Assembly (NCBI RefSeq): GCF_035818615.1
Contig: NZ_JAYKZY010000002.1
Span: 2,916,501 to 2,980,500, forward strand
Origin: Sphingobium sp. CR2-8
GTDB taxonomy: Bacteria > Pseudomonadota > Alphaproteobacteria > Sphingomonadales > Sphingomonadaceae
DNA: 64,000 nucleotides
Direction of reading: 5' to 3'
Position numbers and translations under genes: made by a program. Below the pieces are notes generated by a model. It searched no databases. It saw only the letters and a list, made by a program, of their open reading frames with translations, and was not told the DNA's origin. Shown in pieces: positions 6,276 through 62,868 of the stretch. Position 1 is the first letter of the stretch. The number at the start of each line of letters is the position of its first letter.

Positions 6276-7045
6276 CTATTGCGTGGTCGCCAAAGAATTG
6301 GCATCGCGCGCGGCATTCAGAAAAGGCTGGACCCGCAACCGGGGGAAGACATCCTCGATCGGCTTGGTATCGGGCAGGATATAGACATATCCCCCCTTCC
6401 TGCGAAACAGCGGGCTGACCTTGGCATAGAAGGCCTTGGGCACGTTGATGCAGCCGAAAGTGATGCGGTTGTCGTCTATTTCGGGGACAGCATCCGCTCC
6501 TTGCGCTTCTCCTTGGGATTGCCCGGCGGGATGGTGTGCAGCGCGACGGAGGTCGCATAATCGACCCACAAGACCCGCTGCTTGCCCGCCGCCACGCCGA
6601 ATTTCGCCAGATAACGCCCGGCAGGCGTCGTCTTTTCCGCCGGTCCGATCTCCGACAGGCTTTTGCTGCCGATGCCGGGCGTCGCGTCATCTCCCGGCAT
6701 GATGCCGATCAGCACCGGCCCATGGGCCAGCAGCTTGCCCTTGGCATCATAGAGGAAGGCGGCGGCCGACGGCTTGTCGATGATGATGTAGGGCAACGCG
6801 CGATTGTCCCGCGCGCTCATCACCCAGTCGGCGACCCGCGTGGCGGATGCCGACAGTTCCGGCGCGGGTGCGTCTTGGGCTGTCACGGCATCTGGCTTGG
6901 CTGCCTTGGACTTGGCGGCCTTGGGCTTGATGGCAGCGGGCTTGGCGGTGCTCCGCTTGGCCGTGGCCGGACGACGGTCGGCCGCCTGAGCGGGCGTGGA
7001 CACGGTGAGCGCAAGCGCCATCAGCGCCAGAAAAGCAGGAATCAT
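6276..7045 (-). pseudogene. L,D-transpeptidase (YkuD), split by a 1-base frameshift
   Basis: L,D-transpeptidases cross-link peptidoglycan or attach lipoproteins to it in the periplasm. The first frame (from ATG 7045) has a signal peptide, an Ala/Lys-rich linker and the YkuD core up to VALHTIPPGNPKEKR, then stops near 6476. The other frame carries the rest, including the catalytic-cysteine motif RITFGCINVP and the C-terminus ending at 6276. The break is at G4 on the plus strand (6483-6486); one more base gives RMLSPEIDDNRITFGCINVP, exactly what the family expects. The gene is therefore probably intact in the organism and the break a homopolymer error. The YkuD identification is secure. Confidence 0.85.
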
Positions 7046-7118
7046 GCAGGGCAAAACTCAAAAAAGGGCCGACGCGAAGGAAAGCGCCGACCCGTATAGC
7101 AGATAGCCGTCTGCGACC

Positions 7119-7421
7119 TTAGTTGCGAGCGCGCTTGCGCTGGGCCTGCTGCAATTGCTGCTCGACCCCGTCGACGCGGCCGTTCAATTGTTCCAGCCGC
7201 TGGCTGTTCTGCTGCGCCTGGCCGGACGCCGACCGCGCTTCGGCCAGGGCCTGCTGGGCGGTGCCATCGGTAGTCTGCAATTTCGCGTCGAGCGCATCCA
7301 CGCGCTGGTTCACGGTGGCGACCTGTTCGCGGACGAACCCCTTCGTGGCGCAGCCACCCAAGCCCATCGAGCCAATCAAAACCACGGCAAGCGGGGCCAT
7401 TTTCGTCAGAGACGGCGACAT
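7119..7421 (-). CDS. Small coiled-coil lipoprotein
   Basis: This is a 100-residue predicted lipoprotein. The signal peptide ends in a lipobox LGGC, with the lipidated Cys near residue 24. The mature part is polar and helical (VNQRVDALDAKLQ, SQRLEQLNGRVDGVEQQL), so it probably forms an Lpp-like coiled coil under the outer membrane. An AGGAGA ribosome site precedes the ATG. It lies upstream of the L,D-transpeptidase on the same strand, and some L,D-transpeptidases anchor such lipoproteins to peptidoglycan. A functional link is plausible but inferred; no C-terminal Lys anchor is obvious. Confidence 0.7.
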   Translation of the reverse strand: MSPSLTKMAPLAVVLIGSMGLGGCATKGFVREQVATVNQRVDALDAKLQTTDGTAQQALAEARSASGQAQQNSQRLEQLNGRVDGVEQQLQQAQRKRARN

Positions 7422-7943
7422 ATTTTTCTCCTGATGGTCAATAAACCGTCATGTTTCCAAGCTCAGCGCAGAGCGGCGGACAACGCGATTCTGTCCGGCT
7501 GTGCATGACGCCAGTCGAACGGAGCCTTGAGCGAAGTTACGCTATTCCGCCAAAAACGCGCCTGAATTCCACATGAACCCGTAACGGTTTTCCCACTTCC
7601 ACTGGTCCGACTCCAGCAACAATCTGTCGCCACCAGACATAAAGCGTCGCCGCCGAATCACCGTGATTCGCTGGCGAAGCGCGGTGCGGACTGCCGCCAG
7701 CTAACAGGTGCGCCAGCCGGTCGCACCGATGACCAACGGTTCGCTCCCGGCGGGCAGACCTGGAATAGGCGCCCGGACCGGCGCTGTCGCACTGGGACTG
7801 GTGAAAGCCTCCGTCGACCGGCAAGCCCCTATCACCATTTTCCCCTTGCTCCGGCGGCAATCCCATGCACAAAGCTTGCCAACTGCCGTACGCGTTCCGG
7901 CGTTTAAGGGATGCTTAGTCAAACGGCTGCAAGGACAAGACGC
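7422..7943. other. 520-base region with no supported gene
   Basis: No open frame here has ribosome-site support or a recognisable product. It must hold the promoters of the divergent lipoprotein gene and lptB. The 15-bp palindrome GAATCAC-C-GTGATTC at 7655-7669 is the only clear structured element. In many proteobacteria lptC and lptA sit just upstream of lptB; they are not here. Confidence 0.5.
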
Positions 7944-11398: not shown

Positions 11399-11405
11399 CA
11401 AATAT

Positions 11406-11559
11406 CTCCATTATGGAGGAAGCTTCATTCTTTTCTAACTGGGCAGAAAACTTCCATCATTTTGGCCTGGAAATGGCGATGAGATGGATAAAAAACCGGC
11501 ATGAACCGGTCGCCAGCAGCGACCGGGCGGCATCTTGATCCAGACCTACTCCATAATGG
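11406..11559. promoter_or_regulatory. Two copies of CTCCATWATGG before the MarR-like regulator
   Basis: CTCCAT-T-ATGGAG (11406-11418) is a perfect inverted repeat around one base. CTCCATAATGG (11549-11559) repeats its core in the opposite orientation about 140 bases on. Both lie between the aminotransferase stop and the regulator start at 11630. Paired palindromes before a winged-helix gene suggest autoregulation. Confidence 0.4.
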
Positions 11560-11629
11560 CTGATTTGCGGGGCTGAAACGATCCATTCTTGCTTTAGTCT
11601 CCGGAACGAAGGTAGAACAGGATCGGATC

Positions 11630-12699: not shown

Positions 12700-12775
12700 G
12701 GGCGATTAGCTCAGTTGGTAGAGCGTCTCGTTTACACCGAGAATGTCGGCGGTTCGAGCCCGTCATCGCCCACCA
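12700..12775 (+). tRNA. tRNA-Val (anticodon UAC)
   Basis: A complete cloverleaf: acceptor GGGCGAT pairs with ATCGCCC, D-arm GCTCAGTTGGTAGAGC, anticodon stem TCTCG/CGAGA with loop TTTACAC (anticodon UAC), and T-arm GGCGG-TTCGAGC-CCGTC, followed by an encoded ACCA. Its 3' 49 bases are the attachment core of the adjacent element; integration left this copy intact. Confidence 0.96.
12727..12775 (+). repeat. attL core (49-bp direct repeat, copy 1)
   Basis: The 3' part of tRNA-Val from the anticodon stem to CCA is identical over 49 bases to 22004-22052. Flanks differ on both sides (TCTCG against GCTCG before, TTATA against GTTTC after), which fixes the repeat limits and the crossover region. Confidence 0.95.
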
Positions 12776-12793
12776 TTATAAAGCCTGCAAATA

Positions 12794-14008
12794 CTAGCCT
12801 TTCGGCGCTTTTCTGTCAATGACAGTCGTGTTTCCATTTCCCTCTTTGGTCCGCATGTGGTCCGCAAGCCATTGGTCCGCAGCCGCGCGAATCTCTCCCC
12901 AAATCGTGGACAGCATCGCCGCAGCCTCCCGCAAATAGGCCGGATCATACTTCGCATAGACCGCCGTCGTGCGATTCCCGTAGGCATGGCCTAGCAATGT
13001 GCTGATTTGCTCCTGGGCGATGCCTCGGCTGCGCAATTCCGTCGCCAAGGTGTGGCGGATCGTCTTAGGCACGACATCGGCGGGCAGGTTGAGCGCTGAT
13101 CGCATCAACCGCCATGCATTGCGCCGTGACGCGACGGCCTCATGCGGATCGGCCTTCCAATCTTTCAGGATAGGTTTCAGGGCAGCGATCTGCGGTATCA
13201 CCGGATTGACCTTTTTTGTGCGCGGCCATTCGGGCGGGTGCATGTCCAACTGGCGCTGAGATTCGCGCCATTGCGTCTCTGGGTTGAAAGCAAGGCAAGC
13301 ATCTGGCCGGGCGGCGGTGGTCATCATCAGGACGACCCAGCGCCACGTTGGCTTATCCATGGAAAGAAATGCCAGCGCCGCGCCCATCTGCTCGATCGAC
13401 AAGACGCGATCGCGGGCAAGGGACCGCTTCTCCTTCGGGACGCTGGGGATCTTCGGCACGTAGGGGATGCGCTGGTTGTTGGCTGCATGATTGAGGGCGG
13501 CGCGCAAATCCTCGATGTTGCGCTGGACGCTTTCGCCCTTCACGCCCTTCGACCGATGCACATATTCCTTGCCGCGCCATGGCAGCGAATATTCGTGCGG
13601 ACCCATGCGCCAAGCGATGTAGCGCGTGATCAGGTTCTTGTTGACCTGGGCGACCGTCACGCGCGCGCCCACTTCATCTTGCAGGACAAAGCCGATGAAG
13701 TGGCGCAGCGATCCCGCGATGGTGTCGGCGCTATCGACCTTGGAGCCATGCTCATCGAAGTAGAGAATAAGCTGCGGCAGGACCGTGGCGGCTTCAACCG
13801 GCTGCGACCCCTTCGCCCTTTCGCTTTCGACATGAGCATGGATAGCACCGATTGCATCGTCTAATGCTTTGCACTTAGTGCTGCGATATATGTCCGATCT
13901 TGACTTGGCGTCGTATCGGGCAATCTGCCAGATGTCGGGAGAACGCCCATCGCGGCGCTTGTCGAGCCAGCAATCTCCGATGACGTAAGGTGATGTGTCT
14001 TTGCCCAT
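12794..14008 (-). CDS. Phage tyrosine integrase
   Basis: This 404-residue recombinase would integrate and excise the element at the tRNA-Val 3' end. The N-terminus (DCWLDKRRDGRSPDIWQIARYD) is an arm-binding-type domain; the core-binding helices lie around residues 90-190. Catalytic residues visible in the last third are Arg in TTAARPDACL, KxxRHTLATELRSRG (Lys where HxxR is more usual), His in LLGHAYGN and Tyr in TTAVYAKYDPAY. It ends 19 bases from the attL core, the classic position. Its last codons contain three TGGTCCGCA repeats that may be arm sites. It is full length and probably functional. Confidence 0.93.
   Translation of the reverse strand: MGKDTSPYVIGDCWLDKRRDGRSPDIWQIARYDAKSRSDIYRSTKCKALDDAIGAIHAHVESERAKGSQPVEAATVLPQLILYFDEHGSKVDSADTIAGSLRHFIGFVLQDEVGARVTVAQVNKNLITRYIAWRMGPHEYSLPWRGKEYVHRSKGVKGESVQRNIEDLRAALNHAANNQRIPYVPKIPSVPKEKRSLARDRVLSIEQMGAALAFLSMDKPTWRWVVLMMTTAARPDACLAFNPETQWRESQRQLDMHPPEWPRTKKVNPVIPQIAALKPILKDWKADPHEAVASRRNAWRLMRSALNLPADVVPKTIRHTLATELRSRGIAQEQISTLLGHAYGNRTTAVYAKYDPAYLREAAAMLSTIWGEIRAAADQWLADHMRTKEGNGNTTVIDRKAPKG
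12847..12881. repeat. Three TGGTCCGCA repeats inside attL end (candidate integrase arm sites)
   Basis: TGGTCCGCA occurs at 12847-12855, 12858-12866 and 12873-12881 within the 3' end of the integrase gene, about 75-105 bases from the attL core. The same 9-mer occurs twice near attR at similar distance and in the same orientation. Confidence 0.55.
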
Positions 14009-14166
14009 GAACCCTTAATTTCCTCGGCTTCGGCCCTAATGAGGGCGTCAAGCGTGCCGATGTCCACAAGGGCGCGCAGTTCGTCCAGTGTGAATTTCGT
14101 GCCTGTCTCATTGCGAAGAGCGCGGCGGTATTTCTTTGCGATGTCGCTGATGTTCCCCACCCTCAA
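13861..14166 (-). CDS. Small phage protein overlapping the integrase start
   Basis: This is an up to 101-residue frame starting at TTG 14166 (or GTG 14160), coupled to the stop of the HNH gene. The first ~55 residues (KKYRRALRNETGTKFTLDELRALVDIGTLDALIRAEAEE) look like a real helical protein. The remainder runs 148 bases over the integrase N-terminus and looks less protein-like, so the true stop may have been lost. It sits where excisionase-type regulators are often found, but no HTH is evident. I do not recognise a family. Confidence 0.45.
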   Translation of the reverse strand: MRVGNISDIAKKYRRALRNETGTKFTLDELRALVDIGTLDALIRAEAEEIKGSWAKTHHLTSSEIAGSTSAAMGVLPTSGRLPDTTPSQDRTYIAALSAKH

Positions 14167-14450
14167 TCCCCCCGCAAAGCAGCGGGCAGCAAGCCACGCT
14201 CACCGATAAGCACGTCAACCCGCCGCGCCATTTCGCGGATCTGCCTCGCCTGAAATTCCATTTCCTCAGCCAGGGTCACCAGAGCATCCGGCGTCATCTC
14301 GCCCTTTAGCTGGTTACAGGCCCGGCAAACCCGGATAATATTCTGAGGGCCTAAGCGTTGGCCGCACAGGACGCGCGGGACTATGTGATCCTTCGTCGTA
14401 ACCGCCTTTGGCATCGGGCCATCGCAATAGGGGCAATCCGCCTCGCTCAT
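14163..14450 (-). CDS. HNH endonuclease-like protein
   Basis: This is a 95-residue small HNH nuclease-type protein. A CPYCDGP zinc pair is followed by KDHIVPRVLCGQRLGPQNIIRVCRACNQLKG, containing the DH, N and CxxCN elements of the HNH fold. The ATG at 14450 overlaps the stop of the upstream gene as ATGA. Free-standing phage HNH proteins often act in packaging or as homing nucleases, but here it lies in the integrase-proximal accessory block, so its role is open. Confidence 0.75.
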   Translation of the reverse strand: MSEADCPYCDGPMPKAVTTKDHIVPRVLCGQRLGPQNIIRVCRACNQLKGEMTPDALVTLAEEMEFQARQIREMARRVDVLIGERGLLPAALRGD

Positions 14451-14911
14451 GGGGTGTCGGCCTTCTGCTGGGGTGCGTCGGGGAGTGGGCGCCAGTGGGT
14501 GGGGCGAAGATATCCGCTGACCGCGCCATCCCATTCCGCCCCGGTCCATTCACCGCCCACAAAGCGCCCTGATTCTGAGTTCCGCTCTTCCTCTCGATAG
14601 TAGCAGCCCATGGTGACGCCTATTTCTAGGTCGGGCGCATAGATCAGCACCCACGTACCGTCCTTCGGAGCCGTCTCAATAGGCCGCCACTCCCCCGCCT
14701 CCACCCGATCCAGCAGGGCGGGAAGGGCGTTGATGGCAGCGGCAATTAGCTTCGCGTCAATCGTCTCATTGCTGGTCTGCATTTCCGCGATGACATAGGT
14801 AGTCAGCCGGTCGATCTTCTGGACTATCGTGCCTGACGTATTCAGGTATTCCCATGGGCGTGGGGTGGCGAGTGCCAGCAACTCGCGCAGTTCTGCGATG
14901 GTGTCAGTCAT
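14447..14911 (-). CDS. Ead/Ea22-like plus DUF551 phage protein
   Basis: The 154-residue protein has two parts. The N-terminal half (IAELRELLALATPRPWEY, LIAAAINALPALLDRVE) resembles Ea22/Ead-type phage proteins. The C-terminal half (EWRPIETAPKDGTWVLIY to GYLRPTHWRPLPDAPQ) is a DUF551 domain. Such proteins are common in the early accessory regions of temperate phages and have no known function. The start ATG 14911 overlaps the end of a truncated gene upstream. Confidence 0.7.
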   Translation of the reverse strand: MTDTIAELRELLALATPRPWEYLNTSGTIVQKIDRLTTYVIAEMQTSNETIDAKLIAAAINALPALLDRVEAGEWRPIETAPKDGTWVLIYAPDLEIGVTMGCYYREEERNSESGRFVGGEWTGAEWDGAVSGYLRPTHWRPLPDAPQQKADTP

Positions 14912-15015
14912 GGCGTGCTTTCCTTTCAGCGTCACGTTTCCGCGCCTGCTCGATCGACCATTCCCACATCCGTTTACGCTCTTCCTGATGCTCGCGGATG
15001 TGCGCGTGTCGCTCC
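14904..15015 (-). pseudogene. 3' remnant of a minus-strand phage gene
   Basis: In frame before the DUF551 start, the minus strand encodes a highly charged tail (QERHAHIREHQEER, then EWSIEQARKRDAERK, ending ARHD) with a stop at 14904-14906. Charged helical composition and the start/stop overlap with the next gene suggest a real gene whose 5' part was lost where gp10-like sequence now begins. The exact breakpoint is approximate. Confidence 0.5.
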
Positions 15016-16276
15016 TGGCATCTCTCGCCTGGCGAAGCGCGATGGAGCCGATCGCGGCGGCAAGCTTTGGAATGGGATATGTTATCGCGTGATCGGCACG
15101 AAGCTGGTTACCGTTTCTGCCTATGGAGCGATCACCGAATTAGGCGATGTCGGGCGCGGCGGGCGTTGTTGGTTCGATTATAGCTTCGACCGTTTGGCGA
15201 TCGGGTCTGGCGATCGCATGTATTACTGGGACGGGTCTGCTCTCAATCAGGTATCTGACCCGGATCTTGGGCAGGCAATCGATGGAATTTGGCTCGATGG
15301 CCAATTCATGACGACGGATGGTGAATATCTCGTCGTTACCGAGCTTAACAATCCTACCGAAATCGACCCCCTGAAATACGGCTCGTCTGAAGCCGACCCT
15401 GATCCCGTGCTTGGCCTGATCAAGGTTCGAGGCGAGGCCTATGCGCTGAACCGCTACACCATCGAGAATTTTACTAATTCCGGCTCTTCCGGCTTCCCGT
15501 TCGTGCGCAACAGCGGCGCGCTTATCTCGTATGGCGTTGTCGGCACCCATGCCAAAGCCGCCTATGTCGATAGCTTTGCCTTTGTCGGCAGCGCAAAGGA
15601 CGAGGCTCTTGGTGTATATCTCGCGGGCAATGGCGACGCTGCCAAGCTGTCTAACAAATTTGTTGATGATGAACTTAAAGCCCTCACCGACGAAGAGGCG
15701 GCGGCGATCGAGATGGAGGCGCGGGTAGACGCTGATGAGCAAAGGCTTCTTGTCCACCTTCCGACAAAAACGTTGGTCTATTATGCAACGGCTTCGCAGG
15801 CAGCGCAGTCGAAAGTCTGGGCGGTGTTCGCTTCGGGCGTTGCGGCCGACAAAGCGTATCGCGGGCGCAACGCCGTTCTAGCCTATGGCAAATTTATCGT
15901 TGGCGATCGGGACGGCAATATCGGCTATATCGATAGCACTGTTGCCACCCATTATGGCGAGGTTGCGGGCCGGCGTTTCGATACCACCTTGATTTACAAT
16001 GATGCCGGGCGCGGAATCATAAATTCCGTTGAGCTGACTGGCCTTCCTGGCCGCGCGCCTGCCGGAACAAGCCCGCGGACTTTCATGTCTTGGACCATAG
16101 ACGGCGTAACCTGGTCGCAGGAGCGCGCCATCTCAACCGGGCGACCGGGCGAAAGGGCTGTGCGGGTACAATGGAGGCCTAACATTCGGTTCAATCGGTG
16201 GATCGGCCTACGATTCCGTGAAGCTGACGAGGGTATGGCGGCCTACCTCCATTCAAGCCGCCGCCGATTTGATTGA
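15010..16276 (+). pseudogene. P22 gp10-like packaged-DNA stabilisation protein, 5' truncated
   Basis: In P22-like phages gp10 closes the portal channel after DNA packaging. The open frame here contains its characteristic propeller: NGICYRVIGTKLV, DYSFDRLAIGSGDRMYYWDG, DGIWLDGQFMTTDGEYLVV and GDRDGNIGYIDS. The N-terminal start of the family is missing, and the frame instead runs back over the minus-strand gene remnant, so 15010 is an approximate left limit. It is convergent with the minus genes at 16422. No portal or tail neighbours remain. It probably cannot serve as a virion protein. Confidence 0.7.
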
Positions 16277-16387
16277 GGACGACAGGGAGCGGGCTTGCTT
16301 GCGAAAAGAGTGACATCCTGCATCGTCCCTGAGTGATGACGGGACGGTGCCGAACAGCCTACTTGCGCGCCATTAAGCCTTTGCGGT

Positions 16388-16415
16388 GCTGAAAAGTGGC
16401 GGGCCGAAGCCCGCC
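16388..16415 (-). terminator. Terminator of the 16.4-17.4 kb minus genes
   Basis: On the minus strand GGCGGGC-TTCG-GCCCGCC (16415-16398) is followed by ACTTTTC. The UUCG tetraloop and position 7 bases after the stop at 16422 support a rho-independent terminator. Confidence 0.75.
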
Positions 16416-16421
16416 GATAGG

Positions 16422-16805
16422 TTAGGCCATTTGCCGCGCGCTGTCCGCGACGATCTGGATCAGGTCATCGGCAAATGGCATTCCTGATATTCTTTCAGTA
16501 TTAGCTCCAGCTTCACGGCGATGTCTTTACCGCTGCGTGTTGGAACGCGAAGCACGGCTTCTAACTCCTCATCGGCACGATCGCTAAAAGCGATGCTGTC
16601 TGTATTGATCCGGTCATAATCGGGATCGTTTCCACGTGTGTCATGGATCGGATGAGCCTGATATTCAGACCAAGCCTGCCGGAAACGAGCGATGGCAACA
16701 TCCAGTTCGCTCGACGGCGAGCATACCAGCGCTTGGGCAGCGGCGGGCGGCGATAGCGACCGGCGCGACCAGCGCGGCGGTGAGGAAGGCGCGGCGGTCG
16801 GTCAT
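16422..16805 (-). pseudogene. Tat-signal-like phage protein, frameshifted
   Basis: The start MTDRRAFLTAALVAPVAIAA looks like a twin-arginine or Sec signal. About 20 codons in, the protein-like reading moves to another frame (SSELDVAIARFRQAWSEY, DEELEAVLRVPTRSGKD), and near the end to a third (DDLIQIVADSARQMA, stop 16422-16424), 7 bases before a terminator. The second shift again needs one missing base; the first needs one extra or two missing in a C-rich run. It is coupled by ATGA to the gene before it. The function is unknown. Confidence 0.5.
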
Positions 16806-16963
16806 TGCGCATCCCTCCGTGCCGCCTGCTCAGCCCAACCAAGGGCGTGAATGGCGTTCCATGCTGCGATATGCGCGGGATTAGTGGGGTCGAAGGGCTT
16901 GACGCCCACCGCATATCCGCTCTTTGCGGCGCGCGCACGAATTGGTATGACGTTGGTAGCCAT
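16802..16963 (-). CDS. Small 53-residue phage protein
   Basis: This frame is too short for many gene finders. It runs from ATG 16963 (MATNVIPIRARAAKSG, then AHIAAWNAIHALGWAEQAAR) to a stop that overlaps the next start as ATGA, matching the coupling style of the other element genes. The Trp/Ala-rich helix looks real. No family is recognised. Confidence 0.5.
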   Translation of the reverse strand: MATNVIPIRARAAKSGYAVGVKPFDPTNPAHIAAWNAIHALGWAEQAARRDAQ

Positions 16964-17030
16964 AACGAAACTCCGGTTCGTTGAGGGTTAGGAGCGGCGC
17001 GAAGGGTGGTAGCTTCGCGCCGTTCTGTTT

Positions 17031-17390
17031 TTAATGGGCGGTGAAAAGCTGATGCAGCTTCGCCAGCCCTTTGCCTGTGATGAGAGCGGTTACACTACGC
17101 TGGAGGCCCTTTTCGGGATGCTCCCAACTACCGATCTTCACGTCCATCAGGCCAGAATTGATCTTGTCCTGATAAGGCTCGTTCAACCGGGTCATCCACC
17201 CTTTCTCGCGAAGGAATGCGGCAAGGCGGTTGCGGCCAGTGCCGAGTATCTTAGCGGTCTGGCCGAGAGGGATAGCATCAGGGGCCGCTTCGATCTGCTC
17301 GGCGAAAGCCACTTTGGGCGCAGCAGCTTCGACTTGCTGGAGCAGCCGTTGCTCACTCTCGGTTTTATCAGCCAAACCCTTTCGTCCAAG
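17031..17390 (-). pseudogene. Phage antirepressor, C-terminal KilAC domain only
   Basis: The reading PLGQTAKILGTGRNRLAAF, REKGWMTRLNEPYQDKI and SWEHPEKGLQRSVTALITGKGL is a clear KilAC domain, found at the C-terminus of Ant antirepressors, which switch prophages to lytic growth. The N-terminal Bro/Rha-type domain is absent; the frame runs into sequence that on the other strand encodes coat protein, so the gene is cut at about 17350-17400. It is the first visible member of a minus group with the two genes that follow. It is probably non-functional. Confidence 0.75.
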
Positions 17391-18305
17391 AACCTGCGCA
17401 ACGAATGGGCGCTTCAGCAATATGCGGATGCAGCCAAGCAGAAGCTGTCGTCCGACATCAATGGCGCCTTGTTCGACACGGCCGCCCTCGGCTCGGTGTT
17501 CGTCAAGCGCGGCATGGCACCGACCGGCTTTGATGACGTGGCAGTCGCTGACACGACCTTTTCGCGTATCGGCGTGACCAACCGCGATCGCTCGCTGTTC
17601 TTGGCAGCATCGGCCTATAACGGAATGGCGTCGAATCTCGCAAAGCCGCAGACTTCCGGCCTGACCAAGACCTCGACGGCCTATGAGAAGGGTTATGTCG
17701 GCCCAATCAGCGGCTTCGATACGTTCAAGAATGACACGGCCAAGACCCTGGGCGCTGCCACGGGCGGCGCGATGACCGTCAATGGCGCTGGTCAGTTCTG
17801 GGAGCCTAAGGCCACCAGCATGGGCGCGACCGGCGAAACCGAGAATGTGGACAACCGTTCGCAGAACCTAACCATCACCGCAGCGGCCTACGCGAACATC
17901 AAGGTCGGCGACGCCTTCACCATCGCTGGCGTGAACGCAGTCAACATGATCACCAAGCAGGATACCGGCCAGCTTCAGACGTACCGCGTCATCGGCAAGC
18001 CGTCTGCTGGCGTCATCACGATTTGGCCTGCGATCATATCGAACGGCGGCAGCACGATCGGCGGCAAGGAATTGCAGAACGCCACTGCCACCCCGGCGAA
18101 CGGTGCCGCGATCACTTGGCTCAACACCACTACGGCCGAACAGAATCCTTTCTTCGTGCGCGGCGCGATCTTGCTGATTCCCGGCTCCTTCGCGGTGGAT
18201 CCCGAAGATGGCTGGAACGTGATGCGCGCAACGACCTCGCTGGGCATCGGCATCACCTATGCGGTCAAGATCCAGGACGCGTTGTTAGCGGGAGGTAGGG
18301 CATGA
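17390..18305 (+). pseudogene. P22-like major coat protein, truncated
   Basis: The protein reads as a P22 gp5-type coat: NVDNRSQNLTITAAAYANIK, then VGDAFTIAGVNAVNMITKQD, TGQLQTYRVIGKPS and LIPGSFAVDPEDGWNVMRA. The N-terminal arm expected before NEWALQQYADAAKQK is missing; upstream codons of the same frame are antisense to the antirepressor fragment. The C-terminus also looks short, ending in KIQDALLAGGRA rather than the usual longer tail. The stop overlaps the next start (ATGA). No scaffold, portal or head genes adjoin it. It is unlikely to assemble capsids. Confidence 0.72.
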
Positions 18306-18532
18306 CCGACCGCCAACCCCTAATCGCGTTCGGCCTGCTCCTGTTCGCCATCTGCTATCTCGCCACGGTCGCGGCATGGCTCGCCGCGCAAGGCAAATAC
18401 GCTGAGGCCTTGGGCTTCGGCGGCATCACGACAGGCCTTGTTGGCGTGCTGGGGACTTTCCGACCGCGCAACAGCAGTGTGACGATCGACAACCCGCCGA
18501 CGAACCCCGTTCAGACGGAGGAAGCAAAGTGA
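18302..18532 (+). CDS. Small membrane protein, possible holin
   Basis: This is a 76-residue protein with one clear transmembrane segment (LIAFGLLLFAICYLATVAAWLA), a second weaker one (GFGGITTGLVGVLG) and a polar tail. Size, topology and position after a virion gene fit a holin, or a phage membrane protein of similar appearance. Its start overlaps the coat stop and its stop overlaps the next start. Holin function is inference only. Confidence 0.5.
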   Translation: MTDRQPLIAFGLLLFAICYLATVAAWLAAQGKYAEALGFGGITTGLVGVLGTFRPRNSSVTIDNPPTNPVQTEEAK

Positions 18533-18840
18533 CCGAAAAGCCCACCATCATCGACACCGACTACGAGTCCAACAGCTATCTCGCCATGGCCGCCCGATCC
18601 GGTCGCATTCTGGCAGAAATGTCCACCGAGGGTTCTGAACTGATCGGCCATGTGACGATCGGGATCTACAGCGATGGCACATATAGCTGCGGATTCAAGA
18701 TGCCTGATGATCAGCCATTCATGGGGCCGACGCTGTTCTGCGCCTTTATCAAAGAGGTACCCCCTCTCAACCTAGCACGCATAGAGCGCGGCAAGTGGCA
18801 ATGGTGGTGGGACGCGGTTCTGCTGCTGGTGTGGACCTAA
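18529..18840 (+). CDS. Phage hypothetical protein
   Basis: This is a 103-residue protein starting with GTG, overlapping the previous stop as GTGA. Composition is ordinary and soluble (SYLAMAARSGRILAEMS, TIGIYSDGTYSCGFKMPDDQ). No domain is recognised. Its stop codon overlaps, on the other strand, the stop of the convergent gene at 18837. Coupling suggests it works with the small membrane protein before it. Confidence 0.55.
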   Translation: MTEKPTIIDTDYESNSYLAMAARSGRILAEMSTEGSELIGHVTIGIYSDGTYSCGFKMPDDQPFMGPTLFCAFIKEVPPLNLARIERGKWQWWWDAVLLLVWT

Positions 18841-19091
18841 CTCCCGCCATGACTGATCCCCCGATGCGTCGCCCCGGTGGCGCTCCAATAGTAGATCGCA
18901 TATTCGATCGCCTGGTCTAGCGCTGCCTGCGGGTTATCACCCCTGCCAACCCATCGCGCATTGCAACCACCCTCGCGATGGTGAAGATCGACTTGAGCCT
19001 CCCAGCGGTCGCCGCTTTTGCGATATCGCCACATCCACAGCATGCCTCTGGATTTTGCGTAGTCGGTCAGGCGGGTGGCGTCGGGCTGCAT
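18837..19091 (-). CDS. Phage hypothetical protein, 84 residues
   Basis: This is a small basic protein (MWRYRKSGDRWEAQVDLHHREGG, DNPQAALDQAIEYAIYYW) of unknown function. It is the last visible gene of the right-hand minus-strand group, 42 bases after the preceding stop. A beta-strand plus helix pattern resembles phage accessory proteins, but I cannot assign a family. Confidence 0.5.
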   Translation of the reverse strand: MQPDATRLTDYAKSRGMLWMWRYRKSGDRWEAQVDLHHREGGCNARWVGRGDNPQAALDQAIEYAIYYWSATGATHRGISHGGS

Positions 19092-19133
19092 AGCGCTTGT
19101 TCGCGCAATGTTCTCGATTCGGTCAAGGAGTGA

Positions 19134-19472
19134 TCACCCCTCCCCCAAATTGCGGATGGCGGCGGCGATCTGCTGACTGGTCCTCCACCCCTCGGCGTGG
19201 ACGTTGCATCCATCCCTGTCATGATCCTTGGATGCGAGGTTGTGCAGGGCGCGTGAACCTTCGGCGGCATCATCCGCCACTTTCGCGCACCGCTCCCGCT
19301 CATCCTTGCGCGTCTCTGCTTCGAAGCGGGCGAAGGCTTGGATGCGCGGATGGCTATCATGGAAGCCGGCCATCCAAGAAAATCGCTCACGCGGACCGCC
19401 ACGCATGAACCAGTTGCGACTTCTCCATGCCGCCTCTCTCGCCCCTTGCGACACGGCGATAGGGTCAGTCAT
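19134..19472 (-). CDS. Phage hypothetical protein, 112 residues
   Basis: It has RKDERERCAKVADDAAEGSRAL followed by a C-terminal QQIAAAIRNLGEG, a layout shared by many small phage proteins of unknown function. ATG 19472 overlaps the previous stop (ATGA), and the gene continues the coupled minus-strand series. Confidence 0.5.
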   Translation of the reverse strand: MTDPIAVSQGAREAAWRSRNWFMRGGPRERFSWMAGFHDSHPRIQAFARFEAETRKDERERCAKVADDAAEGSRALHNLASKDHDRDGCNVHAEGWRTSQQIAAAIRNLGEG

Positions 19473-19642
19473 GAGCGGGCCTTTCGCAACATGCGCTGGA
19501 GGGATGCGGATTTCTCACGGGGTTTCGGCTTCGGCTTTCCGACCGGCAACGATGGCAACGGCTCGCCCCTGTTCATCGCCTCCGTTGCCGCCAACAGAGC
19601 CAGCCCCGCAAAGCCGATTGCGCCGATTCGCTCCCCGCTCAT
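19469..19642 (-). CDS. Small 57-residue protein with a hydrophobic segment
   Basis: Reading from ATG 19642, which overlaps the previous stop as ATGA, the protein is MSGERIGAIGFAGLALLAA followed by a Pro/Lys-rich tail. The hydrophobic run may be a short membrane anchor. It is embedded in the coupled operon, which is the main reason to accept it. Confidence 0.5.
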   Translation of the reverse strand: MSGERIGAIGFAGLALLAATEAMNRGEPLPSLPVGKPKPKPREKSASLQRMLRKARS

Positions 19643-20825
19643 TCGCCCGAACCTCCCTGCTGGCCGCAAGTGCAAGGATCGGCATGAGCATCCGGCAGTT
19701 CGCCACCCTCGTCATCCCAGCATACCCGTGATGCGAAGGCGTCCAGCGCCTTGGTCAAAGCCTCAGAATCGACGCGCTCTTCCTCGATCGAGATGGAGAC
19801 ATAGCCCCGTTCCATGATCTGTCGACCAGCCACGACCAGCGCTGCCACATCGGCAGGCACCGCCATCTGCACCGCCTCCCCGGCTGGTGTGGCGTCCGCT
19901 GGCTTAAGGGCGGCGGGAAACACGCGAAGCATCCGGGTTGCGACTTCGCGGAACTTGGCCTGCACATCAGACGGCACGATCTTCACAAATCCGCCGTCGC
20001 GCTGGCCGGTATCGTCTCGATGTTCGGGCCATGTATAATTGGACCAAGCGTCACCGAACCCGCCTTCGTCATGCAGCCATTGGGCAGCGCGTTCGATATG
20101 TTCGGCGTCCACCTCCCCGCGATCTGGCGCAGGGGAGAGGGCGCACTTTGAGCAAACAAAGCGTCCGTGGTCGTCGCACATACCGTCTACGTCCCAGCCT
20201 GGACCACCCACCCCGGCATCATCCGTTCGCGCTGGGGTGGTGAGGGCTTGGCGCAGAGCGCGGGCAATGCGATCAAAGGCATCCGCCGTTCTTGCCGCAC
20301 CCTGCCATCCGCCAGTGCGATTGCGGTCGCGCATTAGGTTGGCCGACATTTCAGCGGCGCGCGCTTCCCTTGCCACAGCCTCCCGCAACCCAACCGGCTC
20401 AGCGGCGGGCGGGTGGGCGACAGGCAGCGCTGACCCCGTAGGCTTGGCGGCTTGCTTGGCCCTGATCTTTTCCACGATATGCGGCTGGAGTATGCGCGCC
20501 AGTTCGATTTCGCCAGCTTCGTGCATATCGATGTCGGCGGCCAGACAGAGGGCGGCCAGCGTCACCATCACGCCGCCTACTTCCTGTTGCCGCTCGCCAA
20601 CATCGCGGCCGAACACATAGTCAACGAGCGCATGGGCGCGGGTCGCTGTGAAGCCGGGCATCGTCTGCGCCAGTTCCAGCGCCTCTTCTGTGAAGCGGTC
20701 GGCCCGCTCCAGCATGTCGCTGCTGATTTCTGCGCCAAAGCACTGCATCATCCATGGCTGGACACGCTGCTGGAACGCAACCGCCTCCCCCTCAAGAGGG
20801 GGATTTGCGCTACTTGCCAGGCCAT
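19639..20825 (-). CDS. MazG-like nucleotide pyrophosphohydrolase (phage), start uncertain
   Basis: The N-terminal ~110 residues contain ERADRFTEEALELAQ and GRDVGERQQEVGGVMVTLA, the acidic metal-binding helices of MazG-like dNTP pyrophosphohydrolases; the rest is a long, poorly conserved tail with CSKCALS near the middle. The first in-frame ATG is at 20751, but protein-like sequence (LEGEAVAFQQRVQPW) continues upstream without a start. ATG 20825, just after the preceding stop, comes into this frame if the G5 run at 20798-20802 had one more base. The true gene therefore probably starts at 20825. The role is probably control of nucleotide pools. Confidence 0.65.
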
Positions 20826-20834
20826 CCGGGAGTT

Positions 20835-21116
20835 TCAGAGATCGCGGTCCAGATGCAACCTCTCGGATGAAGAGGTATATTGGGTTTCGGGCATTTGCTC
20901 AATAGACTTGCTGTCCGCGAGCATCCGGGCGGCGGGGGTGGAAAGGGCGGCATCTTGGTCTGCGGCCAGCGATGATATGATCGCCTCCAAATCGCCGAAC
21001 GTTATTTTCAGCATTATTGGAAGGTCGGAACGGCGGTTGGCAACATGTACCCTGTCGCGCTTTCTCTCCAGAGCAGCCGCCAGCGCTTCGGGTTCGGTGG
21101 GGGTGGTCGAGGTCAT
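20835..21116 (-). CDS. Phage hypothetical protein, 93 residues
   Basis: From ATG 21116, overlapping the previous stop as ATGA. It contains VANRRSDLPIMLKITFGDLEAIISSLAADQ, a mixed beta/alpha pattern, and a polar tail. No known family is recognised. The start chosen is internal to a longer open frame and is fixed by the overlap. Confidence 0.5.
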   Translation of the reverse strand: MTSTTPTEPEALAAALERKRDRVHVANRRSDLPIMLKITFGDLEAIISSLAADQDAALSTPAARMLADSKSIEQMPETQYTSSSERLHLDRDL

Positions 21117-21574
21117 TGGGTCTTGTCCTTTCGTGCGCGCTTTGCTTCTTCCCATTGGTGGTTGACACTTCCCATTTTTGGAACGTCTTCTGGGAAGATC
21201 GCAGCGCTGCAATGAGGGCAGGCAGGAACCATGTTCTTGCGCCGGAAATGCTCATCCATCTGCTTGGCGGCGATGCGCAAAATGCTGTGCTGCTCGGCCT
21301 CCGTTACGGCCTCTTGCCGCCGCTCTATGTCGAACGCGGCCCGGTGGAAATTCTCGCAGATTTTCGTGAAAGCATCGAACGGTTCGATGTCCGTTTCGCA
21401 GTCTTTGCACCATATGCGGCGCTCTTGGCCATCGTACACCATGCGCGGGTGCTTGCAGGCCGAAACGGGTCGGCGAGACCGGCCGCGTGCAACCCGAAGA
21501 TCGCCAATGTCTACGACCTTGAGGCCGTGCAGATATTCCTGCTCAATGATGGGCGGGTCTTTGCGCTCGCTCAT
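21113..21574 (-). CDS. Zinc-ribbon-like phage protein
   Basis: This 153-residue protein has two Cys clusters: ACKHPRMVYDGQERRIWCKDC and PACPHCSAAIF, separated by a long helix (ICENFHRAAFDIERRQEAVTEAEQ). The spacing suggests two zinc sites. Proteins of this form are common in Sphingomonas and Rhizobium prophages and have no known function. Start and stop overlap both neighbours (ATGA). Confidence 0.55.
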   Translation of the reverse strand: MSERKDPPIIEQEYLHGLKVVDIGDLRVARGRSRRPVSACKHPRMVYDGQERRIWCKDCETDIEPFDAFTKICENFHRAAFDIERRQEAVTEAEQHSILRIAAKQMDEHFRRKNMVPACPHCSAAIFPEDVPKMGSVNHQWEEAKRARKDKTQ

Positions 21575-21879
21575 GCAGCGCCTCCGTTGAGGCGGGCAGG
21601 CGTGCTGACATCAATCGCATAGACCACGACCGGCTCAGGCCCGAAATGTGGATGCGTGATGGTGCGGATCATCTCGCCCCGATACTGCCGGGTCAGGCGC
21701 GTCTTGCCCTCGATGCCGCCGCCCTTGGAATAGCCGCGCAGGAGGATGATGCGGTCATAGGTCCGGTTGCGGAGGCGCTTGATCCAATAGCTGGTGACGA
21801 GCCGGTATTCCTCCAGCTTCTCGCCCGATGCGATCTGGTCGAAGTAGATGCCTTTGAGCGGGATGATGAGGTCACCCAT
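21571..21879 (-). CDS. ASCH-domain protein
   Basis: This 102-residue protein contains IIPLKGIYFDQIASGEKLEEYRL followed by SYWIKRLRNRTYDRIILLRGY, the conserved start of ASCH/PUA-like folds that bind RNA. Its place as first gene of the right-hand minus-strand group, about 125 bases inside attR, suggests it lies next to that operon's promoter. The phage role is unknown. Confidence 0.75.
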   Translation of the reverse strand: MGDLIIPLKGIYFDQIASGEKLEEYRLVTSYWIKRLRNRTYDRIILLRGYSKGGGIEGKTRLTRQYRGEMIRTITHPHFGPEPVVVYAIDVSTPARLNGGAA

Positions 21880-21903
21880 GGGCCGCCTCCCCGTTCAAGC
21901 GGG

Positions 21904-21948
21904 TGGTCCGCAAATGGTCCGCATGTTCGCATATGTTCTGCATATGTA
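21904..21948. repeat. TGGTCCGCA repeats inside attR end (candidate arm sites)
   Basis: TGGTCCGCA occurs at 21904-21912 and 21915-21923 (11-base period). Two looser copies follow with about the same period (TTCGCATATG, TTCTGCATATG). The exact 9-mer is shared with three copies near attL, 80-100 bases from each core. Confidence 0.55.
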
Positions 21949-22003
21949 GCCAATCCGTTCATTACCGAATATGGCTTTAAATGGCGCTATTGCGTTGATA
22001 ACG

Positions 22004-22052
22004 CTCGTTTACACCGAGAATGTCGGCGGTTCGAGCCCGTCATCGCCCACCA
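22004..22052 (+). repeat. attR core (49-bp direct repeat, copy 2)
   Basis: Identical over 49 bases to the tRNA-Val 3' end at 12727-12775, including CCA. The 5' half of the tRNA is absent here, so this is a remnant and not a functional tRNA. It marks the right limit of the element. Confidence 0.95.
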
Positions 22053-43175: not shown

Positions 43176-44377
43176 ATGGCGACCGTCACATCCTCTCCTG
43201 CCAGTGCCGATGCGGGCGACATCCGGCTGGACCTGAACGGCAATCATCTGCGCCTGATCGCAGATGGTCCGTCTCTGCGCGGTGCGTTGATCGCCCTCAT
43301 CGAGGGCGCGCATTACAGCCTGAAACTCTATTATTATATCTTCGCTGCCGACGGTAGCGGGACGATGGTGCGCGACGCGCTGATCGCCGCGCGCGGGCGG
43401 GGCGTGGCGGTGACGTTGATGGTCGACGGCTTCGGATCGGCCGCGACGCCGGACGATTTTTCGCGCCCCTCATTGATGTCGGCGCGCATTTCAGGCGATT
43501 TGGCACTGGCCGATCCACGCGCTACCTGATCCGCAACCATCAAAAGATGGCGATCGCCGACGACCGCCGGCTGATGATCGGCGGTTTCAACGTCGAGGAC
43601 GGCTATTTCGGCATCCCCGCCGACGATCGTTGGCGCGACCTCGGACTGGTGATCGTGGGCGAACAGGCCGGGGCGATGACGCGCTGGTATGGCCAGCTAT
43701 GGCGGTGGGGATCGACGAAGAAACATCGATTTCGCACGCTGCGCCATATGGTGCGGCAATGGCACCCGACCCTGCACCATGATCCCGACGACCCGTTCCG
43801 TTGGCTGATCGGCGGACCAACCCGGCGGCTAAGCCCCTGGGCCAAGATCGTGAAACAGGATCTGGAGCAGGCCAGACGGGTCGATATGATCGCCGCCTAT
43901 TTCTCGCCGGGGCGCGGCATGCTCAAGCGGATCGCGCGCGCCGCGAAACGAGAGGGCGCGCGGATCATCCTGCCGGCGCAATCGGACAATGGCGCGACCG
44001 TGGCCGCTTCGCGCCTTCTCTACGGGCCGCTGCTCAAGCGCGGCGTAGAGATTTATGAATATCAACCCTGCAAACTGCATGCAAAGCTGATCGTCATCGA
44101 TGATGCGGTCTATGTAGGGTCGGCCAATTTCGACATGCGTAGCTTGTTCATCAATCTGGAGGTGATGCTCCGCATCAAGGATGCAGGATTTGCGGCGCAA
44201 GTCCGTGCGTTCATTACTCAGGAGGCAGATGTTAGTCGGGCGATCAGCCTGGAGGCGCATCGTCGCGGGCGCAGCGGGCTGACCCTGTTGAAACAATGGA
44301 TCAGCTATCTGCTTGTGGGGGTGCTGGATTATACGGTGACGCGGCGGCTGAATTTCCGCAATCCGGATGCCGATTGA
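43176..44377 (+). pseudogene. Cardiolipin synthase-like phospholipase D protein, split by a 1-base frameshift
   Basis: The first frame (LRLIADGPSLRGALIALIEG, LYYYIFAADGSGTMVRDALI) runs to ATPDDF, then shifts. The second frame supplies the first HKD motif HQKMAIADDRRLMIGG and the second HAKLIVIDDAVYVGSANFD, ending at 44377. With one more T in the T5 run at 43457-43461 the protein reads TPDDFFAPLIDVGAHFRRFG and is intact, about 400 residues. It would be a membrane-associated cardiolipin synthase or related PLD. This is probably a sequencing artefact. Confidence 0.85.
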
Positions 44378-55233: not shown

Positions 55234-55234
55234 C

Positions 55235-58656: not shown

Positions 58657-58901
58657 GCGTCGCGCTTTCCATGGGTCGGCAGCTCGCCCAGCACATGATG
58701 GACGCCGTCCTGGCGGACGAAGCGGGCCAGTTCCGGCAAGCTGGCAAAGCGCTTGGCGACCGGGATCAGCTGTTCTCCGAGCAGGATGCCAGCCAACCCC
58801 ACAAGAGCGATCACCGGGGGAGCAGGAGAACGGACGCCCATCAGGCTGTAGACGAGGCCGACGATCAGGCCGGCGCCGAGGGAGAGGATGTAGGCTTTCA
58901 T
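58653..58901 (-). CDS. XapX domain (DUF1427) membrane protein
   Basis: A 82-residue protein with two transmembrane helices: LSLGAGLIVGLVYSLMGVRSPAPPVIALVGLAGILLGEQLIP, the XapX pattern. Function unknown; commonly next to alpha/beta or amidohydrolase genes. Stop overlaps the amidohydrolase start by 4 bases. Confidence 0.85.
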   Translation of the reverse strand: MKAYILSLGAGLIVGLVYSLMGVRSPAPPVIALVGLAGILLGEQLIPVAKRFASLPELARFVRQDGVHHVLGELPTHGKRDA

Positions 58902-58924
58902 GTCCGTTCTCCGGCGTTGTGGGT

Positions 58925-59764
58925 TCAGGACTGGATGAAGGCGAGAATGTCGGCGTTCAGCACGTCGGCATTCACCGTCAGCATACCGTGCGAATAGCCC
59001 GGATAGATTTTGGACGTCGCATTCGGCAACAGCTGCGCCTGCAGCAGGGCGGCGTTCTTATAGGGCACGACTTGGTCGTCATCACCCTGCAGCACCAGCG
59101 TGGGGACCGTGATCGCCTTGAGATCCTCGGTCTGATCGGTTTCCGAGAAAGCCTTGATCCCCTCATAATGGGCAAGCGCGCTGCCCATCATGCCCTGACG
59201 CCACCAATTGTCGATCACCCCGGGCTGAGCCGTCGCGCCGGGGCGATTGAAGCCGTAGAAAGGCCCGGTGGGAAAATCGCGGAACATCTGCGCACGGTTC
59301 GCTGCCAGCGCCGCGCGGATACCGTCGAACACCGCCATCGGCAGGCCATCGGGATTGGCACCGGTCTTCGCCATCAGGGGTGGAACGGCGCTGACCAGCA
59401 CCGCCTTGGCGACGCGGCCCTGTGGCTGGCCATATTGGGCGACATAGCGCGCCACTTCGCCGCCGCCGGTGGAGTGACCGACATGAATGGCGTTCTTGAG
59501 GTCGAGATGCGCGACGACGGCAGCGGCGTCGGCCGCATAATGATCCATGTCGTGGCCGAAATCGACCTGCGCGGAGCGGCCATGGCCGCGGCGGTCATGG
59601 GCGACGACGCGATAGCCCTTGGAAAGGAAGAACAGCATCTGAGCATCCCAATCGTCCGAGGAGAGCGGCCAGCCATGGTGGAACATGATCGGCTGGGCGT
59701 CCTTGGCTCCCCAGTCCTTGAAGAAGATGTCGACGCCGTCGGTGGTGGTGACAAAATTGCTCAT
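58925..59764 (-). CDS. Alpha/beta hydrolase, non-heme chloroperoxidase-like
   Basis: A 279-residue esterase/haloperoxidase-type protein. The oxyanion region is FHHGWPLSSDDWDAQMLFF; catalytic Ser in VGHSTGGGEVARY, Asp in LQGDDDQVVP, His in GYSHGMLTV. Several close relatives hydrolyse esters and also use peracids. The gene lies in the LysR-linked minus group, 23 bases upstream of XapX. Confidence 0.88.
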   Translation of the reverse strand: MSNFVTTTDGVDIFFKDWGAKDAQPIMFHHGWPLSSDDWDAQMLFFLSKGYRVVAHDRRGHGRSAQVDFGHDMDHYAADAAAVVAHLDLKNAIHVGHSTGGGEVARYVAQYGQPQGRVAKAVLVSAVPPLMAKTGANPDGLPMAVFDGIRAALAANRAQMFRDFPTGPFYGFNRPGATAQPGVIDNWWRQGMMGSALAHYEGIKAFSETDQTEDLKAITVPTLVLQGDDDQVVPYKNAALLQAQLLPNATSKIYPGYSHGMLTVNADVLNADILAFIQS

Positions 59765-59827
59765 GGGAAAATCCTTGGTACGATGGGGAAGGGAAGCGGC
59801 CGGGGAAAGCCCGGCCGCCGAACTGGA

Positions 59828-60484
59828 TCAATGCGCCTCGGAGGCGTTGAACATGGTCTTGGCGTAGGTGATTCCCAGGCCATAGGCGCCGCCCCACTTC
59901 TTCGCGAAGCCGGTGGTCATGTCGTAGGTTTCGGTCCTTGCCCAATCGCGCTGCAGTTCGAGGAGATACTGGAGCGACGTCATCGGCTTGGCACCCAACT
60001 GGATCATCCGCTCGACGGCGCGCTCATGCGCTTCTTGCGAAATATCGCCGCACGCGTCCGAGATGAAATAGACGTCGAAGCCCTGGTCGATCGCCGAGGC
60101 GACGGGGCCGACGATGCAGACCGAGGTCCACAGGCCCGCAAAGATCAGGCGCTCCTTGCCGATGCGGTTCACCTCATCGATGACGGCCGCGTCTTCCCAG
60201 GTGTTCATGGAGGTGCGGTCGAGCAGCGGCTGGTTCGGGAAGGCGTCGGTGATCTCGCTGAACATCGGCCCGGAGAAGCTATCGACGGCGACCGTGGTCA
60301 GGATGGTGGAGACGTTGAACCCGGCGGCTGCGTTGGCGACCAGAGCCGCGTTGTTGCGCAGAAGCTCGGTCGAAATCGACTTTGTGGCAAAGGCCATCTG
60401 CGACTGGAAGTCGATCATGACGAGGGTGTGATCGGTCGGCGTGATCAGGGATTTGCCGGGGGTCGGGGTTGCTTTGATGGTCAT
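59828..60484 (-). CDS. Isochorismatase-like cysteine hydrolase (YcaC type)
   Basis: A 218-residue hydrolase starting at MTIKATPTPGK. Asp in HTLVMIDFQSQM, Lys in IGKERLIFAG and catalytic Cys in GLWTSVCIVGP make the Asp-Lys-Cys triad. The N-terminal upstream ORF to 60511 is unnecessary. First gene of the minus-strand cluster; its promoter contains a 27-base palindrome. Substrate unknown. Confidence 0.87.
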   Translation of the reverse strand: MTIKATPTPGKSLITPTDHTLVMIDFQSQMAFATKSISTELLRNNAALVANAAAGFNVSTILTTVAVDSFSGPMFSEITDAFPNQPLLDRTSMNTWEDAAVIDEVNRIGKERLIFAGLWTSVCIVGPVASAIDQGFDVYFISDACGDISQEAHERAVERMIQLGAKPMTSLQYLLELQRDWARTETYDMTTGFAKKWGGAYGLGITYAKTMFNASEAH

Positions 60485-60836
60485 GTCGGTCTCCAATCGA
60501 ATTTCGTACACTCGGTTCGTTCCGGTGTGATTGAAGAACTAGTCGGCTCAGCTCATGCTGTGCAGTCTGATAAAACTTGGCCCATCGTTCGATTAAATCG
60601 AACGATGGTTGAAAGCGCGATTCCCTCGTTGCTCAATCTTTAGGTCTAGTTGCAGACTATGTCGCTCGTTGGTGCCTGCTGGGCCAAATCCCATGCGCCC
60701 TTGGCGCTTCGGTGCCGAAACCCGGGCAATTGAAAAGGCCTGTTGCATCGGCGCGATCTTTGCTGCGTCGAGATGTCCGGCAATGGGAAGGCGGGAGCGC
60801 ATCGCCGCTCCCATCAGGATCGCGCTGTCCAGGCTC
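60485..60836. other. 352-base intergenic region
   Basis: Contains the promoter of the isochorismatase-led cluster with a 27-base palindrome (60582-60608) and the 3' end of the amidohydrolase. A minus frame at 60593-60814 has no ribosome site or domain and is not supported. Confidence 0.45.
60582..60608. promoter_or_regulatory. 27-base palindrome containing TTCGATTAAATCGAA (LysR-type box, copy 2)
   Basis: CCATCGTTCGATT-A-AATCGAACGATGG is a perfect 13-bp inverted repeat around one base, 98 bases before the isochorismatase start. Its centre matches the site at 53859 in 14 of 15 bases. Confidence 0.65.
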
Positions 60837-61922
60837 TTATAATTGATAGACCTTTTGGGCAGTCCTACGGAACAGATGGCTCTTTTCCGTCGCAGAGGCG
60901 CCGCGTGCGATTATCTTGAACGCGTTCCATGTCGCCCCATAGGACGCGACACCGGCATTGGCGGGCCAGTTGCTTTCGAACATGCATCGTTCGACGCCGA
61001 ACAGGTCGATGCTCCGTTCGATGAAGGGACGCCATTGCGCAGCCAGGACCGATGAACCAGCCTCCTTCATGCTTTCTTCCGGCCTGGGGCCGAACGGACC
61101 AAGACCACCCAGCTTGACGCAGACATTGGGACAGGTAGCCAGTTCCGCCATGGCCCGGCCCCAATCTCTGCGAACCTCCGCCTGCCGGTCGGCATAGGGA
61201 CCGATGCCCAGCGGGCCGCCGCAATGATTGACGATGATGCTGGTCCCGGGAAAGCGCCGGGCTAAGGCGGTCAGCGACGCTATCTGCGGATGGAAAAGCC
61301 AGATGTCGAAACTCAGGCCAAGCGGTTCGAGCGCCTTGAACCCTTCGAGGAAGGCGGGATCCGTCAGCAGATCCTTGTTGAGTCCCATGCCAGCAAGCGG
61401 GGGATAAGCATCCCATGCGATGGAATTGCGTATGCCCTTCAGACGTCCGCCCCCCGCCTCCATATGGGCGCGCAACAGATCGTCGGCACGCGCGCCGACC
61501 CTGAGATCGACCTTGCCCACGATCCCCGCCGCGATCGCGCAGGTCGGCGGCCGTCGGGCCGCGACGTCGTCGCCCAGGCGAGCGATATAGTCCGTTTCCC
61601 CAAGCGATCTGCGCTCGACTGGTCCGTCGGGCCGGTACATGATCCCGCATTCGACAAATAGGGTCTGGATGATCCGATGGCCGCTGCGCAGGATGTCCGA
61701 CAGGAAATCCGCCGCCAGATAGCGTTCCTGCCCGGGGGTCAGGTCGCGATAATCGCGCATGTGGTGATGGGGATCGACGATAGCGAGATCGGGTTCGATC
61801 GCCCTTTCCTCGGGTGCGTCCTTGTTCATTGCCAGCGCTGCCGATGCAGGCGCGAATCGCCCCGCCGCCGCCGTCATGGCGATAGCGGCCAGCAGATCGC
61901 GACGCCGTGCGGGCAGGGTCAC
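60837..61922 (-). CDS. TIM-barrel amidohydrolase (amidohydrolase_2 family)
   Basis: A 361-residue predicted metal-dependent hydrolase. From GTG 61922, overlapping the previous stop as GTGA, it starts TLPARRRDLLAAIAMTAAAG, a Tat-like export signal. IVDPHHHMRDYRDLTPGQ holds the metal HxH, SIIVNHCGGPLG another ligand, and CMFESNWPANAGVASYG the last Asp/Glu region. Related enzymes include lactonases such as 4-sulfomuconolactone hydrolase. It pairs with the alpha/beta hydrolase gene. Confidence 0.82.
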   Translation of the reverse strand: MTLPARRRDLLAAIAMTAAAGRFAPASAALAMNKDAPEERAIEPDLAIVDPHHHMRDYRDLTPGQERYLAADFLSDILRSGHRIIQTLFVECGIMYRPDGPVERRSLGETDYIARLGDDVAARRPPTCAIAAGIVGKVDLRVGARADDLLRAHMEAGGGRLKGIRNSIAWDAYPPLAGMGLNKDLLTDPAFLEGFKALEPLGLSFDIWLFHPQIASLTALARRFPGTSIIVNHCGGPLGIGPYADRQAEVRRDWGRAMAELATCPNVCVKLGGLGPFGPRPEESMKEAGSSVLAAQWRPFIERSIDLFGVERCMFESNWPANAGVASYGATWNAFKIIARGASATEKSHLFRRTAQKVYQL

Positions 61923-62868
61923 CGTGCCGTCTTCGTCACGCGGCGGATGAAGGGCATCGCGCCTGCCAGCGCGCGGTCGTCGCAATCGATGGGCAGCATA
62001 TGGCCGCAACGGGGAATGACGACCAACTGCTTGTCCTTCACAGCCAGCAGCGCCATGCCCCGTTTGGCATCGCCTTCCACGCTCGCTTCATGATCCTGCG
62101 CGCCCCAGAGGAAGAGCGTGGGCGCGGAAATCCTGGGTAGATCGTCGATCGTGCGTTCGTGCGACGCCGGGCGTTGGCTGGCGGGCGGCATCAGCAGGTA
62201 GCGATTGTTCAGATCCGTCCATTCGCGCACCAGTTCCGGCGTCACCTTGCTCTTATCCTCCACGTTATGAAGGATGATCTGCCGCCAATATTCGTCCTTG
62301 TGATAGCTTTTGTGCGTAGCATCCTCGCCACGGCCTGTTTCAGGGCATCGGAAAATCTGCTGCTGTCCATCACCAGCTTGCCGACGGGCGCATTGCTGTA
62401 GATCAGGCCGGTGAGATGGTCGGAATGCAAGGCCGCATAGGCAGCGCCGATCAGGCCAGAGCTGGATGTCGACACCAGAAGGAACCGGCCCAGATTCAGT
62501 CGCTGGCGCAGCGCGTCGATGATCGCAAGGTTACGCTCTAACGAGTAATCGGCGGTGGGAGACGGGCCTGAGAGGCCGGCCGGGGGCAGGTCGAAACGGA
62601 CGACGCGATACTGTTTTTTCAGACGATCGGCCCACCCGTTCCATTGCCGCAAGCTGCCGAAGGAGCCGTGCAACAGCATGATCGTCGGCCCCTCACCTTC
62701 ATCCACATAATGGATGCGCTCGCCATCAAGTTCGACGAATTGCGAAGCTGGCAAAGCATAAAGGGATTTGAGTTCGACATCCGACCGCGCCGTCTGTGCC
62801 ATGACTGGGGCAACGATCATCGATATGGCGATTGCAATCAGCGACCTCATCCACCTCTGACGCGTCAT
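61919..62868 (-). pseudogene. Alpha/beta hydrolase, split by a 1-base frameshift
   Basis: From ATG 62868: signal peptide (SLIAIAISMIVAPVMAQ), then IMLLHGSFGSLRQWNGWADR and LVSTSSSGLIGAAY (catalytic Ser), up to ARMLRTK, where the frame ends. The other frame supplies LVREWTDLNNRYLLM and the catalytic Asp/His region LFLWGAQDHEASVEG...IPRCGHMLPIDC. The break is T4 at 62308-62311; one more base gives RTKSYHKDEYWRQIILHNVE. Likely an intact gene with a homopolymer error. Confidence 0.8.

Follow-up and report, generated by a model that had tools for sequence, protein, structure and literature searches.

In Shigella, nadA and nadB have undergone true pseudogenisation. Errors in long-read assemblies, as described for Homopolish and Kastor, are mostly indels in homopolymers, with many false deletions (PMC8011154; PMC12007338). 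For Kastor, false deletions are reported to follow runs of between two and eight bases, four to five being the most frequent lengths (PMC12007338).

Features of both kinds are found in the genome of an environmental bacterium related to Sphingobium (G000; 4,514,557 bases), which is in 3 contigs and for this reason presumably assembled from long reads. The window, i.e., the whole stretch of 64,000 bases under study, spans C2:2916501-2980500. Across 12 named loci whose product is related to the protein at 58541-60643, the nearest named organism is Sphingobium psychrophilum (75%), and the two nearest homologues of the alpha/beta hydrolase described below carry the name Sphingobium. As in Shigella, both quinolinate-forming genes are interrupted in this genome; unlike in Shigella, searches turned up no PncB/NadV-type or PnuC family, selection is unchanged and unrelated genes are hit likewise. 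The likeness to the long-read cases covers gene fragmentation by short indels, prominent false deletions, short homopolymers and genes intact in relatives (PMC8011154; PMC12007338); here the pattern is seen in the consensus sequence.

The best explanation is an ordinary artefact rather than a real feature of the cell, the split genes being residual deletion errors of an incompletely polished assembly (probability roughly 0.9). Single bases, in one case two, would have been missed in the assembly, mainly in homopolymers, and intact chromosomal genes would consequently appear as two frames; the living cell most likely carries whole genes. Reads or consensus calling, rather than mutation, would be the cause.

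Split genes in the window

The preliminary description held that four chromosomal genes in the window read as two frames, each for one base missing from a homopolymer. The frames are truly split in all four, as seen directly, and the same genes are whole in relatives or homologues, including the orthologues in close relatives with which comparison had been advised. Relatives' ORFs (from G001, G012, G013, G014 and G044) were compared with the window by tblastn; contig JAVBXL010000073 of MAG GS6 and G012:C185 were treated as one record and not as independent sources. Three interior frame switches, at 6482-6530, 24616-24628 and 43457-43469, were each backed by all five relatives, and DNA alignments place them in or adjoining the named runs G4, T6 and T5, respectively. 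In a stricter frameshift-aware scan, the T6 and T5 breaks were supported by 5/5 relatives and the G4 break by 4/5 (not G001).

The first switch, at about 6480-6486, splits a YkuD-like (L,D-transpeptidase-like) gene on the minus strand (6300..7054, ends approximate) at a run of four (G4, 6483-6486). Its name is weak, the PF03734 match in G044 having an E value of 0.23 (under cut-off) and the G014 protein having no Pfam match; the motif FGCINVP, earlier obtained by repairing the frame, is present in G014. A DUF924 gene (PF06041; 24269..24843, plus strand) is split at a T6 run at 24624-24629, one base from the position first given (24623-24628), and G044 has FFYMPFQH where FFYMPLQH had been proposed. 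The third gene, cardiolipin synthase-like (PLDc_2; 43176..44377, plus strand), is split at the T5 run 43457-43461; its PLDc_2 match is above cut-off and the NCBIfam cardiolipin synthase match under it. Three homologues read D(A/S)FFAPL for the proposed DDFFAPL, and no full-length same-species copy with more than 87% identity occurs among the 120 matches listed of 5,633. At the G4 and T5 runs, both the exact coordinates and the breaks stand.

The alpha/beta hydrolase gene (assigned by Pfam; minus strand; range matched by homologues, 61922..62868) is split relative to all 39 homologues tested (P0002-P0040, out of 95 non-self matches), near 62323-62329. The T4 run to which the break had been attributed does exist at exactly 62308-62311, but homologues put the start of the C-terminal frame at 62326 (27 of them), 62323 (seven), 62332 (two) and 62377-62509 (three), which places the missing base upstream of T4 and not within it. 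There is no long run near the break at about 62326. The closest homologue (P0002) reads EDATHKGYHKEEYW at the break, indicating that the motif RTKSYHKDEYW, derived earlier by repair at T4 and absent from this homologue, retains out-of-frame residues.

Excess of frame breaks over relatives

With a frameshift-aware aligner, the window and 180 kb upstream of it (244 kb in total) were set against 237 kb of G044 (summed alignments, 152 kb); breaks were accepted when both flanks were conserved and no second break lay within 40 residues, with the first tenth of each gene excluded. Eleven events were found in 128 orthologues (43,954 aa): nine clean interior frameshifts and two stops. The stops were set aside by judgement as upstream sequence, that at index 150405 lying in an extension upstream of an intact 427-aa frame, which by its sequence would be MurA, and that at index 217780 (window 37780) in an overlap with the upstream gene. 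With G044 as the target, two events appeared in 136 genes, both mirroring breaks of the other genome, leaving none independent. The resulting contrast, 9/128 versus 0/136 (Fisher p 0.0013), is a stronger test than the window alone, where 3/36 versus 0/36 is modest (p 0.24) and 3/39 versus 0/229 (p 0.003) pools comparisons that overlap. The same test gave 0 events for the five relatives, in 39, 36, 45, 38 and 37 genes. In this 244-kb part of the chromosome, an excess of frame breaks over relatives, across gene functions, is directly observed by homology.

Fourteen other comparisons with a relative as the target yielded two events. For G012 on G044 this was a stop, at residue 46 of 165, and for G014 on G013 a shift, at residue 33 of 285 and thereby ahead of the point where the 239-aa G044 form begins. 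In a looser tblastn scan, one multiply supported interior split gene each was seen in S. terrigena and S. bisphenolivorans (L022 ~1600 and L021 ~3820), so such breaks are not confined to this genome. Position 59786 was rejected as a break, being a spacer ahead of an ATG, although it passed the strict filter with G012 proteins. Many matches near gene starts, in the window and in relatives and some with at least two sources, were left uncounted by judgement or by the first-tenth rule; wrong-strand ORFs were dropped, and indices 62333 and 132912 are divergent or noncoding.

Intact G044 orthologues name the nine broken genes as NadA, NadB, FdhD, an EmrB-like DHA2 transporter, an ABC-F ATPase, a GH3 beta-glucosidase-like protein, and the YkuD-like, DUF924 and cardiolipin synthase-like proteins. 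The first five are each above a curated NCBIfam cut-off; the GH3 protein, of which 529 of 764 aa were given, is under its cut-off. With the hydrolase, ten breaks are known. The direction of change is directly observed: every one of the ten is a net loss, of two bases in NadB (relative to G044) and of one base in each of the others. Eight of the ten lie in runs of at least four, the exceptions being GH3 (ambiguous) and the hydrolase (no run). At three sites, NadB and ABC-F (versus G044) and the YkuD-like gene (versus G014), the run of that base is longer in a relative. At most other sites the run is interrupted in relatives, so the identity of the lost base is often not fixed. The preliminary description had ascribed the window's breaks to one cause, bases missed by the assembly mostly in homopolymers; this reading of the cause is strongly supported, though it reaches beyond what is directly seen, and the pattern is wider than the window.

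NAD supply and selection on the broken genes

Known routes to NAD, as listed in one report, are NadAB, the kynurenine route, PncB/NadV and NadR, together with quinolinate salvage, which it gives without a known transporter (PMC6593275). NadA (C2:2801678-2802663) is in two pieces in this genome and in one stop-free frame in 40/40 relatives. NadB, split here at C2:2860608-2862207, is full length or nearly so in 38/40 and partial without stops in the other two, one of these at a contig end. NadC gave a single match without stops. PF04095 (NAPRTase/NadV) is absent from this genome and was found in five of the 19 genomes searched, two of them of the same genus; PF04973 (PnuC) is also absent and was found in two of five. 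PF06052 (3-HAO) gave no match here, a weak result, as this search reached the cut-off in none of the genomes and in none of the controls. With neither a PncB/NadV-type nor a PnuC family detected, a true NadA lesion would probably be lethal, as far as the three families searched (PF04095, PF06052 and PF04973) show; this points to the assembly.

Ranked against 119 intact genes, the nine broken genes have omega values at percentiles 18-88 (for FdhD, the part before the break only), consistent with ordinary purifying selection; there is no relaxation. No second lesion in the nine genes passed the strict filter, matches at GH3 residue 5 and DUF924 residue 11 having been omitted as start-site ambiguity. 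Neither relaxed selection nor extra lesions, which mark pseudogenes, were found.

The genes might be real, very recent pseudogenes produced by slippage in runs, in a strain that is perhaps a hypermutator or laboratory-adapted. Slippage likewise favours runs, split genes occur occasionally in relatives, and NadA and NadB share one pathway, all of which would fit. This origin is nonetheless unlikely, because all ten changes are losses, the strict filter accepted no gain, no interior nonsense codon and no large indel that breaks the frame among the 128 genes, selection is not relaxed, and NadA appears indispensable in this genome (the PF06052 part of that argument being weak). It is more doubtful still that the breaks are real in the specific sense that about ten genes, NadA and NadB included, were lost only very recently and that the isolate survives through NAD salvage or quinolinate uptake of an unrecognised kind, or through frameshift correction that works efficiently at runs.

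Slippage at runs, whether programmed or transcriptional, by which a correct sequence would still yield full proteins from working genes, draws on the C6, T6 and G5 runs present at several breaks. It is scarcely credible, as in relatives a single frame encodes each of these proteins, the runs often being interrupted there, ten unrelated genes would have to be decoded in this manner simultaneously, and one break has no run. If the breaks are residual assembly errors, annotators of this genome would wrongly score pseudogenes and might, for example, predict NAD auxotrophy from NadA and NadB. Simple extrapolation from nine breaks in 43,954 aa suggests that hundreds of genes could be hit, although another region looks cleaner (see below). 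More generally, when a gene without a metabolic bypass is found broken, suspicion should fall on the assembly.

The MazG-like gene and a prophage-like island

A MazG-like gene with a G5 run at 20798-20802, coordinates that are exact, had been considered a possible fifth homopolymer case. It is located inside a prophage-like island at tRNA-Val (12776..22052), flanked by a 49-bp repeat (12727-12775 and 22004-22052) that copies the tRNA-Val end. The island encodes an integrase-like protein (12794-14008), a phage stabilisation protein (14915-16276) and a P22-type coat protein (17034-18305). The name MazG-like comes from the preliminary description and from homologues' source names (NTP pyrophosphatase); Pfam gave no match on the pieces in the window.

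The segment holding this gene (19127..21116) is a second copy of C2:2774543-2776548; across 2,006 aligned positions the two show 0 mismatches and differ by a single gap of 16 bases, at window 20864. The G5 run is identical in both copies and in the other lies inside an intact 497-aa frame, so an error in this run was rejected as the cause of the break; the window copy is short by 16 bases. For this gene only, the explanation is very likely that a prophage segment exists in two recent copies and that one of them carries a genuine deletion of 16 bases, with an assembly error between near-identical copies as a minor possibility.

Other parts of the genome

A codon-usage scan of C2:1-320000 gave six candidates, of which two were judged plausible, suggesting that the break rate may vary along the genome. 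The scan recovered six of the ten known breaks, with two additional candidates in the tested part and three in G044. Run-length spectra showed no cut-off. Runs of at least seven G or C number six in 564 kb of C2 (nine in 604 kb with samples of C1 and C3) whereas relatives have 16 in about 563 kb, so that any shortage of long G/C runs is at best mild.

On contig C3, 15 of the 19 annotated plasmid genes given (27 lie in the stretch) were found. One of the 15, a lytic transglycosylase-like gene (L072 ~10896-11572), is split into two frames near its end, and its annotated lengths differ between two relatives. Of the two chromosomal candidates judged plausible in the codon-usage scan, a FecR gene is perhaps split (L075:6856-7889), its second piece giving no Pfam match, and an ArdC-like gene (L077:8557-9797) looks split, with its two domains in two frames.
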